A program made the translations under genes and the position numbers. 64,000 nt of DNA from Monoglobus pectinilyticus (GTDB lineage: Bacteria > Bacillota > Clostridia > Monoglobales > Monoglobaceae): contig NZ_CP020991.1 in assembly GCF_002874775.1 (NCBI RefSeq), forward strand, positions 124,001-188,000, written 5' to 3'. Positions 41,892 to 53,782 of the stretch are shown here, piece after piece. The notes below the pieces were generated by a model, which made no database searches, was not told the DNA's origin, and saw nothing but the letters and a program-made list of their open reading frames with translations. The first letter of the stretch is position 1. Each line of letters starts with the position of its first letter.

Positions 41892-44800
41892 GTGGCAAGA
41901 AAATTTGACCTGATTTCAGAGCTGTATGAAAGAACCTGTTTTGCAGTTACAGACAATCCGGTAAACTGGCAATCGTTTCTGAAAACAGCAGGCAGAAATT
42001 TCAGGCTCCGATTTGATGAACAGCTTCTCATTTATGCCCAAAGACCCGACGCAACAGCCGTGCTTGAAATCGAACGATGGAACGGTACTTTCGGTCGCTG
42101 GGTAAACCGAGGAGCAAAGGGTATTGCCGTATTTGAGGACACAGACAGAAGCCGTCAAAGGCTGATTCATTACTTTGATATATCGGACACCCACGAAAGT
42201 CGACATTCCCGCCCTGTTCCGATTTGGGAGATGAGACCCGAATATGAAGCAGAAGTTATTGAAACACTTGAAAATACTTTCGGTGCGGTAAACGATACAA
42301 CGAGTATTGAAAATGTCGTCAAAGAGAGCATTGCCAATGCCGTTGAGGATAACATCGCAGACTATATCTCCGACTTTATGAGTTTGGGTGCAGGAAGCGA
42401 TATTGAGTATTTGTCTGCCGACGAAGCAAATGCCTTGTATTTGGAGCTTGTCAGAAACAGCGTATCATATATGGTTATGGCACGATTGGGACTGAACGCA
42501 GACAAGGTCTATTCTCCCGATGACTTTGCCGGTATTTCAAGTTTTAATTCACAGGAAGTTCTCAATGCGGTGGGTATTGCTACAAGCGACATTGCAGAAA
42601 TGGCGTTGCTCCCTGTCAGCAGAACAATCAGCACGCTCAGCAAGGAAAATCGCATAATTGATGAACAGGAGCAATCCGAATACAATAAAGACATCAAAGA
42701 CGAAAGGAGTCAAAGCGATGAGCGAAATCACATACACGATGGTGGGAGATTACAATCTTCCGAACCTGAAACTGCCGGAGCAGACGGAAGTGACTCTCGG
42801 CAGATGGTCGCAGATGAGGAGAACTTATCTGAAGGAACATCACAAAATCCTGTACTACAATCTTCTGACGAAAGGGATTCTGAACAGTCACTTGGCGGAG
42901 GTTCAGCAGAGAGCCAGCGAACTGGAGGAAACTCTCGTGAAGCAGATGGCACAGAAAGCCGGGCTGACGGAGCAGATGAAAGCGGAAGATATGATGAAGT
43001 GGGTTCGCCTGATGAACAACATCAGGAACTCGGCACAGGAAATCGTGAAGAATCAGGTAATATTCGCTTAGAGTATTACGACAGAAACCACGAGGACAAG
43101 AGCCTGCCGTTTTTCGGTGGCGATGATACTATCCGAGAGATACTCGGTACTACCCCGCATTTGTCCGCTTCAAAGGAAGAAATCAAAGACTTCTATGAGA
43201 GAAATACGGACAATGCGACCCGTACCGAATATATCAAGGGTATCTTCAATAACGACTACACCCGGCTTACCTTAAACGACGGCAGGCTTGTGGGATACAA
43301 AACATTTCAGAATGTCCTCCACTTGTGGGAGGGTGAATACGAAAACAGAACCGCTCAGAGTTTCTACGACTGGGGCGTTATCGCACAGCATTTTGAAGCA
43401 ATGAGACTTTTGGGAGAATTGACCGATACAATGAAACCGATTCCGTCTATGGACGGTCAGTTGACTCTCATTATGGGAAATCAGGCAGAGGAACAAAAAA
43501 CCTCTGCCTTTACTTTTTCTCAGGAAATCATAGACGCTGTATTGACCCGTGGAAGCGGAGTTTCCGAGGGTAAAATGCGTATCTATGAGCAGTTTGAAAA
43601 GAGCATTTCCGCAAAAGAGAACGCCGACTTCTTGAAAAACGAATACGGTTGGGGCGGCTCTTATCCGGTCATCATCGGTGCAGGCATTGACGAACAGCAC
43701 GACGGAAAAGGTATCACAATTTCAAAAGGTATCGGAAGCGACAAGCCGCACATTACTCTTTCTTGGTCTCAGGTGGAAAAGCGTATCGGAGACCTTATCC
43801 GTATGGACAGATACCTAAACCCAAAGGAAAAAGAAAAGTACCCTGAATGGCTTGAAAAGCAGGAAGAACGGCGAGCCGAGCTTGCAGAGCAGAGAAAAAA
43901 CCGTGAGATACTTTCTACCGCACCGCCTGAACCTGAAAACAAAGAGGACGAGCCGGAAGCGCAGTATGAATATCATCTCGGCGACAGCGTGTATATTGGG
44001 GCTTCTCAGTATGAGATTTTGTCCTTTGATGAAAACCGTGTAATGCTCTATGACTTCGATATGCCCTTATTCAACAAGGAACTTTCAAGGGAAGAATTTG
44101 ACCGCAAAGTGCGTGAAAATCCGATGAACGACCACTTGAAGGTCAGTGTATTACCGGCGGAAGAAAAAACCGTTACAGGCGAAAATAAAGCTCAAAACGA
44201 TACTGAAACCGTACCGGATTTCAGTCCGAAAACCGGTTATGACGACGCCTTCTTTATTGACCGGGACAATGAAAGTGTAACTTGGATGTACTATAACCCC
44301 GACAGCAATGCCGGAGGTCAGTATGTTACAAATACTCTTTCTTTTGACGAGATACAGCAAGTCGCACGGGAGTATGACTCGGCAGAGGATTTCTTTGATT
44401 ATCTCGGTAGCATTGCAAATCAGGAGCTTGCCGATGTAGGTACGGAATGGTTTGTGGACGCAGACCGAGAATTTCACAGGACACCGGATTTGACCGACTG
44501 TACCTCTGCCACAATGGAAGCTCTTATTGAAAACACTGAAAGAGCTGATATGGTGGCAACAAATATCGGGAATGTACCGATTGAGGATTACAGAGAAATC
44601 GTTGCTACTCAAAACGGTTTTGACAGCGATGAGGAAATGTATAACGAGGGTGTTCGTATCGGCAACGGTTACGACAAAGAGCCTGAACCGATTGTCCCCG
44701 CTTGGGAGCAAAAGAAAAAGTCAAAAGTAAAGAGCTTTGACCTCCACCCGGATATTCCTATGTCCGAACGACACAACTTTGACCTTGCCAATAATCAGGT

Positions 44801-47800
44801 TGAAGAAGTGAACAAGAAAGAACGCTTCCACCGAAACTATGCAGCAATAAAAGTCCTGAGAGATTGTCAAAACGAAAACCGTTTTGCAACACCTGACGAG
44901 CAGAAAATCTTGTCGAGATATGTCGGTTGGGGCGGTATTCCCGAAGCCTTCGACGAACGAGCAGGAGCTTGGCATACAGAGTATGCAATGCTGAAAAACA
45001 TCCTGACGCCGGAGGAATATGCGTCGGCAAGAGAAAGCACACTGACTGCATTTTACACTCCGCCCGAAGTATCTACCGCCATTTACAAGGTGTTGGAACA
45101 GATGGGATTTCAGGAGGGCAACCTGCTTGAGCCGTCCTGCGGTATCGGTAATTTCATCGGTATGCTGCCCAAGTCAATGGAAAACGCAAAGGTTTACGGT
45201 GTTGAGCTTGATACCATTTCAGCCGGTATCGCTCAGCAGCTTTATCAGAAATCTTCCATTGCGGCACAGGGCTTTGAGGAAGTAAATGTCCCCGACAGCT
45301 TCTTTGACGGCATTATCGGCAATGTGCCTTTCGGAGATTTCAAAGTCTCCGATAAACGATACGACAAGTACAATTTCTTAATCCACGATTATTTCTTTGC
45401 AAAATCGCTTGATAAGTTACGCCCCGGCGGTGTGATGGCTCTTGTGACAAGCAAAGGAACTATGGACAAGGAAAACTCCAATGTGCGTAAATATATCGCA
45501 CAGAGGGCGGAGCTTCTCGGAGCAATCAGACTTCCGAACGACACCTTCAAAGGTAATGCCGGGACAGAGGTCGTATCCGATATTCTGTTTCTGCAAAAGC
45601 GAGACAGACTCATAGATATTGAGCCGGATTGGGTTCATCTTGACACCGACGAAAACGGTATAAGGATGAACTCATATTTTGTTCAGCACCCGGAAATGAT
45701 ACTCGGCGAAATGAAAATGGTAAGCGGTCGCTTCGGACCGGAAGCAACCTGTGAACCGTTTGAAAATGCCGACCTTTCGGAGCTTTTGAACGAAGCAGTC
45801 TCAAACATTCACGGAGAAATCTCCGAATACGAGGTTGCCGACGAACTGGAGGAAGAAGATAATTCTATCCCGGCAGACCCTATGGTAAGGAACTTCTCTT
45901 ACACTGTTTTAGACGATAAAATCTATTTCCGTGAGAACTCCCGTATGTCCCCGGTGGAGGTATCTGCAACCGCTGAGAACCGCATTAAGGGTATGATTGG
46001 GATAAGAGATTGCGTCCGTAACTTGATTGAACTGCAAACCGAGGATTACCCGGACAGCGAAATCAAACAGGCACAGGATAAGCTGAACACACTGTATGAC
46101 AGCTTTACAAAGAAGTACGGACTGATTAACAGCCGTGCCAATACTTCTGCCTTTTCCGACGACAGCTCCTATGCTCTGCTCTCCGCTCTTGAGGTTATCA
46201 ATGAAGATGGCGAACTGGAACGCAAGGCGGATATGTTCTTCAAAAGGACGATTAAACCGCACAAGCCGGTAACGGAGGTTGACACCGCAGACGAGGCTCT
46301 CGCTGTCTCTATGGGCGAAAAAGCAGCCATTGATATGGAATATATGATGGAGTTGTCCGGCAAAAGTGAGGAGGAATTATTCGCTGACTTAAAGGGTGTA
46401 ATCTTCTTAAATCCCCTTTATGAGTACGGTAATTCCTATGAGCCGAAGTATCTGATGGCAGACGAATATCTGTCGGGCAATGTTCGTGAGAAGCTGGCGA
46501 CAGCCAAAAGGTCTGCGGCACTGTATCCCGAAGATTACACCGTCAATGTGCAGGCACTTGAAAAGGTGCAGCCAAAGGATTTGACGGCAAGCGAGATTTC
46601 CGTAAGGCTCGGTGCGACTTGGATACCGCCCGAAATATTCCAACAGTTTATGTTTGAGTTTCTCGACACCCCACGCTATGCACAATGGAATATCAAGGTT
46701 CACTACTCTCAGTTTACCGGCGAATGGAACATTGAGGGAAAGAGCTACGACCGTTCCAATGTAAAAGCGTACAGCACATACGGTACTTCCCGCATCAACG
46801 CATATAAGATAATTGAGGAAACACTGAACCTGAAAGATGTCCGAATCTTTGACTATATCGAAGATGAGGAAGGCAGAAAGAAAGCCGTTCTCAATAAAAA
46901 AGAGACGGCAATCGCACAGGCAAAGCAGGAACTCATAAAGCAGGGCTTTCAGGACTGGATATGGGCTGACCCTGCCCGCCGAGAAAAACTCACGAAGATG
47001 TATAACGAAAAGTTCAACAGTATAAGACCCCGTGAGTACGACGGAAGCCACATTGTTTTCAACGGTATGAACCCGGAAATCGAACTCCGTGAACATCAGA
47101 AAAATGCGGTTGCACACATTCTGTACGGCGGTAATACGCTGTTAGCACACGCAGTCGGTGCGGGCAAGACCTTTGAAATGGTAGCCGCCGCTATGGAGTC
47201 CAAACGACTGGGACTTTGCAATAAGTCGCTGTTCGTAGTGCCAAATCACTTAACCGAGCAATGGGCGGCGGAGTTCTTACAACTCTATCCGGCGGCGAAT
47301 ATTCTCGTAGCGACAAAGCGAGATTTTGAGACAAAGAACCGCAAAAAGTTCTGCGGTCGAATTGCCACGGGAGATTATGACGCCGTAATCATCGGTCATT
47401 CTCAGTTTGAGAAAATCCCGATGTCCATTGAAAGACAGAGGGCAATTCTTGAGCAGCAGCTTGAAGAACTGACAGACGGTATTATGGATTTGAAGCGAAA
47501 CCGTGGAGAAAACTTCTCCATTAAACAGCTTGAAAAGTCTAAAAAGTCCGTGAAACAAAAGCTGGAAAAGCTCAACGACCAAAGCCGAAAGGACGATGTT
47601 GTTACCTTTGAAGAACTCGGTGTGGACAGGCTTTTTATTGACGAGAGTCATTATTACAAGAACCTCTATCTTTACACCAAAATGCGTAATGTGGGCGGTA
47701 TCGCTCAAACGGAAGCACAGAAATCCTCCGACCTGTTTATGAAGTGCCGATACCTTGACGAGCTTACAGGCGGTCGAGGAACGGTATTTGCAACCGGTAC

Positions 47801-49556
47801 TCCTATCTCAAACAGTATGGTGGAGCTATATACCATTCAGCGATACTTGCAGTACAACACGCTTGTCAAAAACAACTTGCAGCACTTCGACTCGTGGGCA
47901 AGTACCTTTGGAGAGACTGTAACAGCCGTTGAGCTTACCCCGGAGGGAACGGGTTACAGAGCGAAAACCCGCTTTGCGAAATTCTACAACCTACCGGAGC
48001 TTATGGCGATGTTTAAGGAGGTCGCCGACATCAAGACGGCGGATATGCTGGAACTGCCTGTGCCGGAAGCACACTTCCACAATGTTGCGGTCAAGCCTTC
48101 GGAAATGCAGAAAGAGATGGTTGCTTCCCTTGCGGAACGAGCCGAGAAAGTCCGTGGCGGCGGTGTAGATTCGAGTGTAGATAATATGCTTAAAATTACA
48201 AACGACGGCAGGAAGTTAGCACTTGACCAGCGTATGCTTAACGATATGCTGCCTGATTTTGAGGGCAGTAAAATCAACGCCTGCGTCGATAACATCTACC
48301 GTATTTGGGAGGAAACAGCCGATAAAAAATCGGCACAGCTTGTGTTCTGCGACCTCTCAACTCCAAAGAATGACGGAACATTCTCGGTATATAACGACAT
48401 CAGAAAGAAGCTCATAGAGCGTGGTGTCCCCGAAAGCGAAGTCCGCTTTATCCACGAAGCAGATACCGATGTGAAGAAAAAAGAACTGTTCCAAAAGACC
48501 CGTAAAGGCGAGGTCAGAGTGCTTCTCGGCTCTACGCAAAAGATGGGAGCCGGCACGAATGTTCAGGACAGACTTATCGCACTTCACGATGTGGATTGCC
48601 CGTGGAGACCGTCAGACTTGGAGCAGCGTTCCGGTCGAATTATCCGTCAGGGTAACTCAAATCCTGATGTAGATATTTACCGCTATGTAACGGAGCAGAC
48701 CTTTGACGCATATCTCTATCAGCTTGTAGAGGGAAAGCAAAAGTTCGCCAGTCAGATTATGACGAGCAAATCCCCGGTGCGTTCTGCCGAGGATATTGAT
48801 GAAACCGCCCTTTCCTATGCAGAGATTAAAATGCTTGCCACCGGCAACCCGTATATTAAGGAGAAGATGGATTTGGACATTCAAGTTCAAAAGCTGAAGC
48901 TCTTAAAATCCAACTTTCTATCTGAAAAATACGCTTTGGAAGATAAGATAATCAAATATTATCCGCAGCGAATTACAGCTTTGGAAAACCGTATTGAAGG
49001 ATTGAAGCAAGATGTAGAAACTGCGAAACAGCACCCGAAACCAACGGACGACCGATTTGTCGGTATGGAGGTTAAGGGTGTTTTTTATTCCGAAAAAGCC
49101 GACGCCGGTAAAGCAATCATTGAAGCCTGCAAGCAGATGAACAGCCCCGACCCTATTCCTCTCGGCAAGTACCGAGGGTTTGAAACGGAACTGCTTTTTA
49201 ATACCGCAGAGCGAAATTATGAGGTTCGACTGAAAGGTGCGACAAGCAGAAATGTTCCTCTCGGTGATGACGCACACGGCAATATTATCCGTCTTGATAA
49301 CGGCATTGAGAGATTTGCCGAGAGCTTGTCGCTTGCGGAAAATGACCTTGAGAACACCACAAATCAGTTGGAAACCGCAAAGAAAGAAGTCCAAAAACCG
49401 TTTATCCAAGAGGAAGAACTAAAGACAAAGCTTGCCCGCTTGGACGAGCTGAATATCTTGCTCAATATGGATAAGCGAGAAAACGAAATTGTCGGCGGCG
49501 AACCCGATGAGGGCGAAGTGCCGAACACACGAAAGGAGAAAACCTATGAACGATAA
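41892..49556 (+). CDS. Giant ArdC-like / N6-adenine methylase / SNF2 helicase protein
   Basis: 2,554-residue hallmark protein of Tn1549/CTn elements. Order: ArdC-like ssDNA-binding N terminus (residues 1-110); an acidic Ser/Gly/Gln linker at about 276-394 that shares its DNA with a tnpV gene in the +1 frame; a series of small uncharacterised domains; a methylase with SAM-site LEPSCGIGNF and motif IV as GNVPFG near 1143; then an SNF2-type helicase with Walker A GAGKT near 1755, DESH near 1915 and QRSGRIIRQGN near 2245; coiled-coil tail. GTG start behind AAGGAGG. Probably shields and processes the incoming DNA; motif IV departs from NPPY. Confidence 0.9.
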   Translation: MARKFDLISELYERTCFAVTDNPVNWQSFLKTAGRNFRLRFDEQLLIYAQRPDATAVLEIERWNGTFGRWVNRGAKGIAVFEDTDRSRQRLIHYFDISDTHESRHSRPVPIWEMRPEYEAEVIETLENTFGAVNDTTSIENVVKESIANAVEDNIADYISDFMSLGAGSDIEYLSADEANALYLELVRNSVSYMVMARLGLNADKVYSPDDFAGISSFNSQEVLNAVGIATSDIAEMALLPVSRTISTLSKENRIIDEQEQSEYNKDIKDERSQSDERNHIHDGGRLQSSEPETAGADGSDSRQMVADEENLSEGTSQNPVLQSSDERDSEQSLGGGSAESQRTGGNSREADGTESRADGADESGRYDEVGSPDEQHQELGTGNREESGNIRLEYYDRNHEDKSLPFFGGDDTIREILGTTPHLSASKEEIKDFYERNTDNATRTEYIKGIFNNDYTRLTLNDGRLVGYKTFQNVLHLWEGEYENRTAQSFYDWGVIAQHFEAMRLLGELTDTMKPIPSMDGQLTLIMGNQAEEQKTSAFTFSQEIIDAVLTRGSGVSEGKMRIYEQFEKSISAKENADFLKNEYGWGGSYPVIIGAGIDEQHDGKGITISKGIGSDKPHITLSWSQVEKRIGDLIRMDRYLNPKEKEKYPEWLEKQEERRAELAEQRKNREILSTAPPEPENKEDEPEAQYEYHLGDSVYIGASQYEILSFDENRVMLYDFDMPLFNKELSREEFDRKVRENPMNDHLKVSVLPAEEKTVTGENKAQNDTETVPDFSPKTGYDDAFFIDRDNESVTWMYYNPDSNAGGQYVTNTLSFDEIQQVAREYDSAEDFFDYLGSIANQELADVGTEWFVDADREFHRTPDLTDCTSATMEALIENTERADMVATNIGNVPIEDYREIVATQNGFDSDEEMYNEGVRIGNGYDKEPEPIVPAWEQKKKSKVKSFDLHPDIPMSERHNFDLANNQVEEVNKKERFHRNYAAIKVLRDCQNENRFATPDEQKILSRYVGWGGIPEAFDERAGAWHTEYAMLKNILTPEEYASARESTLTAFYTPPEVSTAIYKVLEQMGFQEGNLLEPSCGIGNFIGMLPKSMENAKVYGVELDTISAGIAQQLYQKSSIAAQGFEEVNVPDSFFDGIIGNVPFGDFKVSDKRYDKYNFLIHDYFFAKSLDKLRPGGVMALVTSKGTMDKENSNVRKYIAQRAELLGAIRLPNDTFKGNAGTEVVSDILFLQKRDRLIDIEPDWVHLDTDENGIRMNSYFVQHPEMILGEMKMVSGRFGPEATCEPFENADLSELLNEAVSNIHGEISEYEVADELEEEDNSIPADPMVRNFSYTVLDDKIYFRENSRMSPVEVSATAENRIKGMIGIRDCVRNLIELQTEDYPDSEIKQAQDKLNTLYDSFTKKYGLINSRANTSAFSDDSSYALLSALEVINEDGELERKADMFFKRTIKPHKPVTEVDTADEALAVSMGEKAAIDMEYMMELSGKSEEELFADLKGVIFLNPLYEYGNSYEPKYLMADEYLSGNVREKLATAKRSAALYPEDYTVNVQALEKVQPKDLTASEISVRLGATWIPPEIFQQFMFEFLDTPRYAQWNIKVHYSQFTGEWNIEGKSYDRSNVKAYSTYGTSRINAYKIIEETLNLKDVRIFDYIEDEEGRKKAVLNKKETAIAQAKQELIKQGFQDWIWADPARREKLTKMYNEKFNSIRPREYDGSHIVFNGMNPEIELREHQKNAVAHILYGGNTLLAHAVGAGKTFEMVAAAMESKRLGLCNKSLFVVPNHLTEQWAAEFLQLYPAANILVATKRDFETKNRKKFCGRIATGDYDAVIIGHSQFEKIPMSIERQRAILEQQLEELTDGIMDLKRNRGENFSIKQLEKSKKSVKQKLEKLNDQSRKDDVVTFEELGVDRLFIDESHYYKNLYLYTKMRNVGGIAQTEAQKSSDLFMKCRYLDELTGGRGTVFATGTPISNSMVELYTIQRYLQYNTLVKNNLQHFDSWASTFGETVTAVELTPEGTGYRAKTRFAKFYNLPELMAMFKEVADIKTADMLELPVPEAHFHNVAVKPSEMQKEMVASLAERAEKVRGGGVDSSVDNMLKITNDGRKLALDQRMLNDMLPDFEGSKINACVDNIYRIWEETADKKSAQLVFCDLSTPKNDGTFSVYNDIRKKLIERGVPESEVRFIHEADTDVKKKELFQKTRKGEVRVLLGSTQKMGAGTNVQDRLIALHDVDCPWRPSDLEQRSGRIIRQGNSNPDVDIYRYVTEQTFDAYLYQLVEGKQKFASQIMTSKSPVRSAEDIDETALSYAEIKMLATGNPYIKEKMDLDIQVQKLKLLKSNFLSEKYALEDKIIKYYPQRITALENRIEGLKQDVETAKQHPKPTDDRFVGMEVKGVFYSEKADAGKAIIEACKQMNSPDPIPLGKYRGFETELLFNTAERNYEVRLKGATSRNVPLGDDAHGNIIRLDNGIERFAESLSLAENDLENTTNQLETAKKEVQKPFIQEEELKTKLARLDELNILLNMDKRENEIVGGEPDEGEVPNTRKEKTYER
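42718..43071 (+). CDS. tnpV: TnpV-family transposon protein nested in +1 frame of the helicase gene
   Basis: 117 residues starting MSEITYTMVGDYNLPNLKLP, with LGRWSQMRRTYLKEHH, HLAEV and MKWVRLMNNIRNSAQEIV: all hallmarks of TnpV from Tn4451-type transposons. Start ATG 42718 has a clean AAAGGAG 8 nt upstream. The gene lies wholly inside the helicase ORF, in the +1 phase, over a segment that in the helicase frame is low-complexity linker. That contrast says the TnpV frame is the older one and the linker was created by its in-phase insertion. The function of TnpV itself is not established. Confidence 0.85.
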   Translation: MSEITYTMVGDYNLPNLKLPEQTEVTLGRWSQMRRTYLKEHHKILYYNLLTKGILNSHLAEVQQRASELEETLVKQMAQKAGLTEQMKAEDMMKWVRLMNNIRNSAQEIVKNQVIFA

Positions 49557-51955: not shown

Positions 51956-52099
51956 TTGCGGGAGATAGTATTGGTCGCCGCCGGGTTACTCATCGGCGGC
52001 TTTTTCGGAGTAACAACAATGTGCCTGTTTCAGATAAACCGGGACAGACACTATATTTACAGAAAGGACAGCGATAAAAATGAGCAAGAGAAACATTGA
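51956..52099 (+). CDS. DUF3789-like small membrane protein
   Basis: 47 residues: TTG start behind AAAGGAG (51941), one membrane helix IVLVAAGLLIGGFFGVTTMC, then LFQINRDRHYIYRK. The GGFFGVTTMCLFQINR stretch is typical of DUF3789. Overlaps mobC by 20 nt in another frame. Too short for routine gene calling. Position between oriT and mobC is shared with related elements; role unknown. Confidence 0.7.
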   Translation: MREIVLVAAGLLIGGFFGVTTMCLFQINRDRHYIYRKDSDKNEQEKH

Positions 52100-52421
52100 A
52101 AAGCACATTCTGATGAACAAGGCAGAAGCTCAGGATTTGCAGAAAAAAGCAAAGCGGGCGTGTCTTTCCGAAGGCGGACTTATCCGTTTGCTTCTCAGAG
52201 GATACGAGCCGAGAGAAAAGCCCGATGAAAGATTTTACGATGTTATGCGTGAGCTTTCCGCTATCGGCAACAACATCAATCAGCTTGCGGCGAAAGCAAA
52301 CACCCTCGGATTTGTGGACGCACCGCAGCTCAAAAAGGAAGCCGAGCGTTGGCACAAGTTTCAGGCTGATGTGGAGCGTACTTTTTTAAGACCCGATAAG
52401 AGCGATATGAAATGGCAGTAA
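52080..52421 (+). CDS. mobC: MobC-family relaxosome protein
   Basis: 113-residue helical DNA-binding accessory of the relaxosome. RNIEKHILMNKAEAQDLQKK gives the ribbon-helix-helix-like start, and the family motif is ELSAIGNNINQLAAKANTLG at about 60-79. It should bind oriT and assist the relaxase. Overlaps the relaxase gene by 10 nt and DUF3789 by 20 nt, so the three are translated as a unit. Confidence 0.88.
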   Translation: MSKRNIEKHILMNKAEAQDLQKKAKRACLSEGGLIRLLLRGYEPREKPDERFYDVMRELSAIGNNINQLAAKANTLGFVDAPQLKKEAERWHKFQADVERTFLRPDKSDMKWQ

Positions 52422-53782
52422 GTAAATTGTGGTCGGTCACATCAAGGCTCGGTCAGGTAATCGACTATGCCGCCAATCCCGAAAAGACGGCGGCAGACAT
52501 TTACACCGAGGAACAGTATCAGGCTCTCCGTGATGTTCTCAGCTATGCAAAGGACGAAGAAAAAACCGAGCGTGAGTTTTTCGTAGAGGGTATCAACTGC
52601 AACCCTGCGACCGCAAGAGACCAGTTTATATCTGTAAAAAAAGCATACGGCAAAGACGACGGCATTCAAGCCTATCACGGATACCTGAGCTTTAAGGAAC
52701 AGGACATATCCCCGGAGCTTGCACAGAAAATCGGAATGGAATTTGCAAACGAAGTGTGGGGCAAAAGATTTCAGGTGGTGGTTACTACTCATCTGAACAC
52801 GAAACACCTGCACTGTCATTATGTAATAAACTCCGTTTCCTTTGTGGACGGCAAGCGGTTATGGGGCGACGAAAAAGCGTGGTTCAAGTTTCGTTTGGTT
52901 GCCGACTGCCTTTGTGAAAAGTACGGACTGTATTACAATCCGAACCCAAACCGCAGTAAGCAATCCTCTTATTACTACAAGCAGGAACAAGCCGGTATGC
53001 CGAGCCGATATTCAATGACCCGTGACGCCATTGATGAAGCGATTGCACACAGCACCAACTTAAAGACCTTTGATTATATCCTGACTCAGATGGGCTATGA
53101 ACATTGTCTCAGCGACAGTCGAAAGTATTGGACGATTGTCCCGAAAGGATACAAGAAGCCGATACGACTTAAATCACTCGGAGAGAATTATACCGAGGAC
53201 GCAATCAAGCGTAGGCTGACGGAAAATCAAAAGGTTCTTATCGTTCCTTTTGCAAAGGAAACGGTAAGAGTCAGGCAGTACCGAATGCCCACAAGAGAAC
53301 ACAAAGTCAAAAAGGTCGGCGGACTGTATGGGCTGTATCTGCATTACTGCTATAAGCTGGGTTATCTGCCGAAGTACAAAAAACAGAATACCGCAAGGCT
53401 TCACTATCTTTTGAAAGAAGATTTGCTGAAGCTCGACAAAATCACTCAGGAGACAAGGCTGCTTGGACGGGAGAACATTTCTACCGACGAGCAGCTTTTC
53501 TCATATAAAGAGTCCGTGTTGTCGCAAATCAAATCCTTGACTGACGATAGAACGCACCTGCGAAAACAGTTAAGAAGAAATTTGAGTGACGATGAGCTAT
53601 CAAATGTCAAAGAGCAGATTACGGCAATCACGAGCAAGCTGTGGACTCTCCGCAAAGAGGTCGGTCTTTGTGATGACATAGCCGAAAGGTCAAAGGTTAT
53701 TGAAGCCAACCTTGAAACGGTAAGAGTTTACGAAGAAAAACAAGAACGAAAGGAGCAGAACCGTAATGACAAACGGAGGTGA
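52412..53782 (+). CDS. MOBP-type relaxase
   Basis: 456-residue transesterase that nicks oriT and leads the strand into the recipient. Catalytic Y19 (VIDYAANPEKT) and the metal-binding histidines H127, H132, H134 and H136 in THLNTKHLHCHYVIN. The C-terminal third is coiled-coil with a Lys/Arg/Glu tail. The name MobL/Orf-type relaxase of Tn1549 elements would also fit. 10-nt overlap with mobC and 17-nt overlap with pcfB. Confidence 0.92.
   Translation: MAVSKLWSVTSRLGQVIDYAANPEKTAADIYTEEQYQALRDVLSYAKDEEKTEREFFVEGINCNPATARDQFISVKKAYGKDDGIQAYHGYLSFKEQDISPELAQKIGMEFANEVWGKRFQVVVTTHLNTKHLHCHYVINSVSFVDGKRLWGDEKAWFKFRLVADCLCEKYGLYYNPNPNRSKQSSYYYKQEQAGMPSRYSMTRDAIDEAIAHSTNLKTFDYILTQMGYEHCLSDSRKYWTIVPKGYKKPIRLKSLGENYTEDAIKRRLTENQKVLIVPFAKETVRVRQYRMPTREHKVKKVGGLYGLYLHYCYKLGYLPKYKKQNTARLHYLLKEDLLKLDKITQETRLLGRENISTDEQLFSYKESVLSQIKSLTDDRTHLRKQLRRNLSDDELSNVKEQITAITSKLWTLRKEVGLCDDIAERSKVIEANLETVRVYEEKQERKEQNRNDKRR

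Follow-up and report, generated by a model that had tools for sequence, protein, structure and literature searches.

A tnpV gene nested within SNF2 helicase/methylase genes of conjugative elements: a probable case of old and stable dual coding

Described systems and the nested gene of the window

Outside viruses, long overlapping genes on the same strand are regarded as uncommon and as evolutionarily transient. The Rz and Rz1 genes of phage lambda encode short lysis proteins, both of them functional, and their products work together. That system resembles the locus described here in that one gene is fully contained in a second gene of the same strand and in another frame, is kept in relatives and has un-nested variants. 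It differs in that Rz and Rz1 are two short proteins, whereas here the host gene encodes a helicase of 2,500 residues, of which the nested product is only a supposed partner. The laoB and pop genes of E. coli are, like the present pair, bacterial overlapping coding omitted by annotation; in the consulted parts of the two reports (PMC5810103, PMC7103648) they are antisense and limited to a single lineage, whereas the helicase and tnpV share a strand and their overlap is family-wide.

The TnpV proteins of Tn4451 and Tn6104-6106 belong to family PF14198, whose full profile is matched by the gene studied here. Those relatives are free-standing, separate genes on small mobile elements, and the second, helicase-type frame was closed in all 50 free-standing tnpV genes compared (two sets of 25). 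A role for TnpV as a lambda Xis-like excision factor has been postulated (PMC3158075, consulted in part); lambda-Xis, transposase and tet-leader roles gained no support in our analysis. The snf2 gene of ICESa2603-family elements is treated as an insertion site, with no nested gene described there, in the consulted portions of two papers (PMC12942858, PMC9815147). In its S. agalactiae copy (L278), the iterated profile detected a diverged frame resembling TnpV and lying in the same register (E 3e-12); the S. suis att string had no match in L278. A description of the helicase/tnpV overlap was not found in the open-access literature searched and, as far as those searches go, the family-wide nested gene appears undescribed so far.

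The window, a stretch of 64,000 nucleotides from Monoglobus pectinilyticus, contains on the plus strand a gene of 2,554 codons with a GTG start (41892..49556). Pfam domains were found in its product for N6 DNA methylase (PF02384, residues 1042-1238, 45015..45605) and for SNF2 and Helicase_C (PF00176, residues 1748-1923, and PF00271, residues 2171-2254; together 47133..48653), and it is this combination in one protein that marks the SNF2 helicase/methylases of Gram-positive conjugative elements. A mobC-like gene (52080-52421, Pfam NikA-like/MobC) and a relaxase gene (52412-53782) lie downstream on the same strand in the same element (52080..53782). The N-terminal domain of the helicase (residues 1-270, 41892..42701), represented by an alignment (A1) and used as a search handle, is called helN below.

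As the sequence-only reading had claimed, a complete tnpV gene lies wholly within the helicase ORF, in its +1 frame. It runs from ATG to stop at 42718..43071 on the plus strand, encodes 117 residues and is preceded by its own Shine-Dalgarno (SD) sequence AAAGGAG (42703..42709), 8 nt upstream of the ATG; the first codon position of tnpV is the second of the helicase. The protein matched the TnpV profile from 1 to 111 of 111 (E 4.9e-43; 146.1 bits against a cut-off of 27). The Pfam model demands sequence only, and the window's tnpV is nested in a helicase gene, not a separate transposon gene. In the helicase frame the same DNA (42717..43073) gives a hydrophilic linker rich in S, G, D, E and Q (residues 276-394), which also agrees with the earlier description. 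TnpV is the recognisable, structured product of the two, as the earlier description also held; its AlphaFold model was confident (mean pLDDT 91.5), with a predicted beta hairpin and five helices. A PDB sequence search with TnpV gave nothing credible, the best match being a designed protein at E 0.02. The observation in the window is thus confirmed, and the nesting extends further than first noted, to nearly all of the family examined.

Copies of helN 97-100% identical to that of the window were present in records named as several genera (L044-L049), suggesting that the element was transferred recently. Just past the end of the window (5557-11206 of L312), the region has another tnpV, a free-standing one, that precedes IS-like, ribosomal-protection-like and efflux-like genes.

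Distribution of the nested gene across the helicase family

Relatives were gathered by alignment A1 of helN alone, which excludes the overlap. With helN, matches were obtained in 99 of 391 class genomes and 30 of 398 phylum genomes; 80 loci were kept of 559 in genome_contigs, 33 loci came from viral_contigs (where query P0001 found no relative), and 7 of 107 matching plasmid records were taken. A further 60 places were picked by hand from the class-genome matches listed, leaving out the weakest ArdC-type ones. The collected loci were next divided into stop-to-stop frames, which were searched with the TnpV profile. A helicase gene was considered eligible when it had full helN, at least 900 nt after it, and a frame open for at least 600 nt beyond, as was the case for 187 of 236 helN-match loci. 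The remaining loci were set aside before counting; they were 32 partial helN matches, 10 short contigs and 7 interrupted helicases, among which 4, 2 and 3, respectively, carried the nested gene.

A complete TnpV-family gene was found at the same place and in the +1 frame in 184 of the 187 eligible helicase genes, and three were without it. The 184 nested loci comprised 171 distinct overlap sequences; grouping them by helN identity below 80, 60 and 50% gave 102, 63 and 33 clusters, respectively. Across all helicase loci, the TnpV profile gave 216 matches at E<1e-4, of which 214 were in the +1 frame within the helicase ORF; the other two had the +1 register outside the open helicase ORF (one in an interrupted helicase, the other in L216, whose tnpV is separate and lies upstream). 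No match fell in any other frame, and a reversed-sequence control reached a best E of 0.35.

The nested gene reaches Enterococcus, Anaerococcus, Cohnella, Virgibacillus, Ruminococcus plasmids and the snf2 of the streptococcal element; the most distant cases (streptococcal and Peptoniphilaceae-like) were recognised solely by the iterated profile. The overlap seems to persist through divergence below 50% identity in many Clostridia and some Bacilli elements, and provides a large ready data set on two reading frames sharing one sequence. In Listeria pLI100, which lies outside the 184/187 count, the nested tnpV was present in a shortened host gene. In one branch of the family (L225-L232, L278) the ordinary TnpV is replaced by a nested variant that has diverged and has a longer, acidic N-terminus, and one interrupted helicase (L189) had two TnpV copies about 0.5 kb apart.

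Annotation was shown to omit one gene or the other of the nested pair. Eight annotated records with the pair were compared, and none annotated both genes in full (the plasmid gene table being incomplete): two (L034, L279) had tnpV but lacked the N-terminal part of the helicase, five (L276, L277, L280, L281, L282) had the host gene without tnpV, and one (L278) had neither gene.

Constraint on the two frames and the start of tnpV

Substitutions were compared in 57 disjoint pairs of nested loci, with helN as the outside reference. At helicase codon positions 1, 2 and 3, the values were 0.142, 0.101 and 0.358 in helN, and 0.269, 0.150 and 0.109 in the overlap. Position 3 of the helicase was therefore the most conserved inside the overlap, indicating the rhythm of the TnpV frame. 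Helicase-silent fourfold sites had changed at 91 of 2,017 positions (4.5%) in the overlap compared with 1,734 of 4,492 (38.6%) in helN, and the overlap was lower in all 57 pairs. TnpV-silent fourfold sites had changed at 520 of 1,966 positions (26.4%), which was also below the helN value (in 45 of 57 pairs, p 1.2e-7), indicating that the helicase frame is constrained as well, less strongly. Taken together, these comparisons indicate purifying selection in both frames, stronger in the TnpV frame. Constraint confined to the helicase frame, which the sequence-only reading had named as a refuting result, was not seen.

Of 207 nested loci, 206 had a helicase frame without interruption up to and across the stop of tnpV. 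When the codons of one frame were shuffled synonymously, keeping its amino acids and its codon set (400 shuffles per locus, 91 loci below 70% helicase-domain identity), the median share of shuffles in which the other frame stayed open was 2.3% (helicase) or 2.8% (TnpV); the double open frame is more than a chance effect. Helicase-frame identity was above the shuffle expectation in 57 of 57 pairs, a count that is overstated because the pairs share ancestry. T at would-be stop sites was seen in 0 of 1,681, which is a consequence of picking open loci and gives no separate proof.

The far stronger constraint in the TnpV frame raises the alternative that TnpV alone matters, and that the helicase frame is just kept open while the content of the linker is unselected. 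We consider this unlikely, because TnpV-silent sites diverge less than the silent sites of helN, as given above, and because T is halved even at sites where no stop threatens: TnpV fourfold sites with no stop at stake had 12.9% T and 47.1% G, compared with 25.3% and 24.4% at helN fourfold sites. Moreover, the hydropathy of the helicase-type frame was lower in the nested genes than in free-standing tnpV (-1.37 vs -0.87), with GC also differing (0.51 vs 0.40). A second alternative concerns how TnpV would be made, namely by a programmed +1 frameshift that adds it to the helicase N-terminal domain as a C-terminal extension, with no internal start. An SD-like sequence can promote frameshifting, and the TnpV frame was open for a median of 24 codons upstream. 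However, among 110 nested loci below 80% helN identity tnpV started with ATG in 107, at a spaced SD, and known +1 shift-like strings were present within 60 nt in only 4 of 110 (three strings searched). We regard frameshifting as very improbable.

An SD of at least 5 nt was found at 85% of the 110 nested tnpV starts compared with 4.9% of 4,309 other +1-frame ATGs in helicase genes, and one of 6 nt at 58% compared with 1.0%; for each tnpV the best among several close start positions was counted, so that the comparison leans somewhat towards tnpV. Nested tnpV is thus probably started at its own ribosome site. We propose that a single mRNA of the conjugative element would carry the helicase/methylase gene. 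Ribosomes coming from the helicase start would read the overlap as a flexible hydrophilic linker joining the N-terminal domain to the rest of the protein, and other ribosomes would initiate at the internal AAAGGAG/ATG to make a compact TnpV of 117 residues in the +1 frame, so that both frames of the shared stretch would be translated.

Age, origin and possible role of the nesting

The three eligible helicases without nested TnpV (L327, L328, L329) have short linkers, with the N-terminal domain fused to the helicase, and serve as natural un-nested controls. A QLSLF-type motif, which resembles the sliding-clamp binding motif, lies 33-54 residues beyond the N-terminal domain in these three and 117-257 residues (median 135.5) beyond it in nested helicases; the latter lengths come from the 18 of 107 nested loci having this clamp-motif anchor. 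The motif was found at the tnpV stop, where the linker ends, in 13 of 107 nested loci (e.g. L015, L027), and in the linker of all three TnpV-less helicases (L216, L220, L222); the window's helicase has none. As predicted earlier, homologues without nested TnpV therefore have a shorter linker at the same spot, and an equally long linker without TnpV, which the earlier reading had named as a refuting result, was not seen among the three.

In L327 a separate tnpV precedes the helicase by about 95 nt; in L328 one lies about 1.4 kb before the helicase, after parA-parB. These two of the three un-nested helicases speak against the earlier idea that the nesting is merely a way for tnpV to travel with ICEs. 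No tnpV was found within 18.8 kb of the helicase in L329, so the helicase may be able to do without TnpV, or may receive it from another locus, since that genome (G124) has 7 other TnpV matches.

Helicase-domain and TnpV distances were strongly correlated (Mantel r 0.82, 64 loci; 0 of 2,000 permutations), as is expected of long joint descent. In the helN tree (rows L271, L281 and L223 dropped), the three TnpV-less helicases fell inside the tree, requiring 2 changes, with weak support, long branches and no root. The TnpV trees (one with L271, L281, L282 and L276 dropped) were poorly resolved at 114 columns; the labels nested and free-standing needed 7 or 8 changes on them, of which starred branches force 1 or 2.

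The sequence-only reading had favoured birth by insertion in this element, with a mobile tnpV that landed in the window's helicase and chanced to keep its frame open. TnpV is indeed free-standing on other elements, and the short linkers of TnpV-less helicases would fit such an event; but the constant position and frame of the nested gene in 184 of 187 helicases, the co-divergence of helN with TnpV, and the position of the TnpV-less helicases within the weakly supported helN tree all oppose it, and we find a recent insertion hardly credible. Nesting instead seems to be old and stable in the helicase family. Its first event could have been an insertion into the linker, or a fusion of neighbouring genes across tnpV. 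According to the latter account, which concerns origin and not dual coding, tnpV would once have stood between a gene for the N-terminal domain and one for the helicase, and the three would have become one frame that passes through tnpV in its second frame, with some lineages later un-nested. It draws on free-standing ArdC-like proteins that match the first part of helN (L268, L269 and others), on an ArdC-like gene (5195-6934 of L329) adjoining a TnpV-less helicase, and on the tnpV directly before the helicase in L327. However, the helicases of L327, L328 and L329 already include the N-terminal domain, joined by a short linker, no intermediate was found, and the tree is unrooted and weak; we hold this ancient fusion as a tentative account, plausible yet short of an even chance.

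Judging from position alone, TnpV would most likely be a small protein that assists the helicase as a partner, or assists the step of DNA processing served by the helicase, and nesting would keep both genes together and co-expressed. We give the whole proposal, comprising a true dual-coding stretch, an old and stable nesting, an internal start and TnpV as partner of the helicase, a probability of roughly 0.85. TnpV, an uncharacterised family, would thereby gain a probable partner and, if both frames are used, one DNA stretch seems to have served as the code of two proteins over a very long period. More speculatively, the helicase gene might be a two-protein gene throughout the family and nested TnpV its dedicated and near-obligatory partner, with nesting locking dose, timing and inheritance, and the free-standing TnpVs of small transposons and beside tet genes might be escapees; we offer this stronger version as a conjecture that may well be wrong.

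Among free-standing tnpV loci (L313-L315 repeat L003-L005), the flanks of 35 of 53 had none of 15 neighbour queries, so that most lie away from the mobilisation genes searched for, a point against the proposal; an association of tnpV with mobC/relaxase genes was dropped, being seen at only 8 of 53. The TnpV of L328 was nearest to one free-standing copy (L023), and then to the nested TnpVs of helicases that neighbour the L328 helicase in the helN tree; a contig with this free-standing copy (L330) has the same parA-parB-tnpV order. In L292, L295, L303, L304 and L308, a leader of about 250-300 nt, tnpV and 35-50 nt past its stop were common to otherwise unrelated flanks. An Rfam search gave a tRNA as its only match and nothing at this place. 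The leader was matched in 21 of 291 genomes; it was more conserved than the gene, a hairpin followed the stop, and leader and tnpV may possibly form a small mobile unit.
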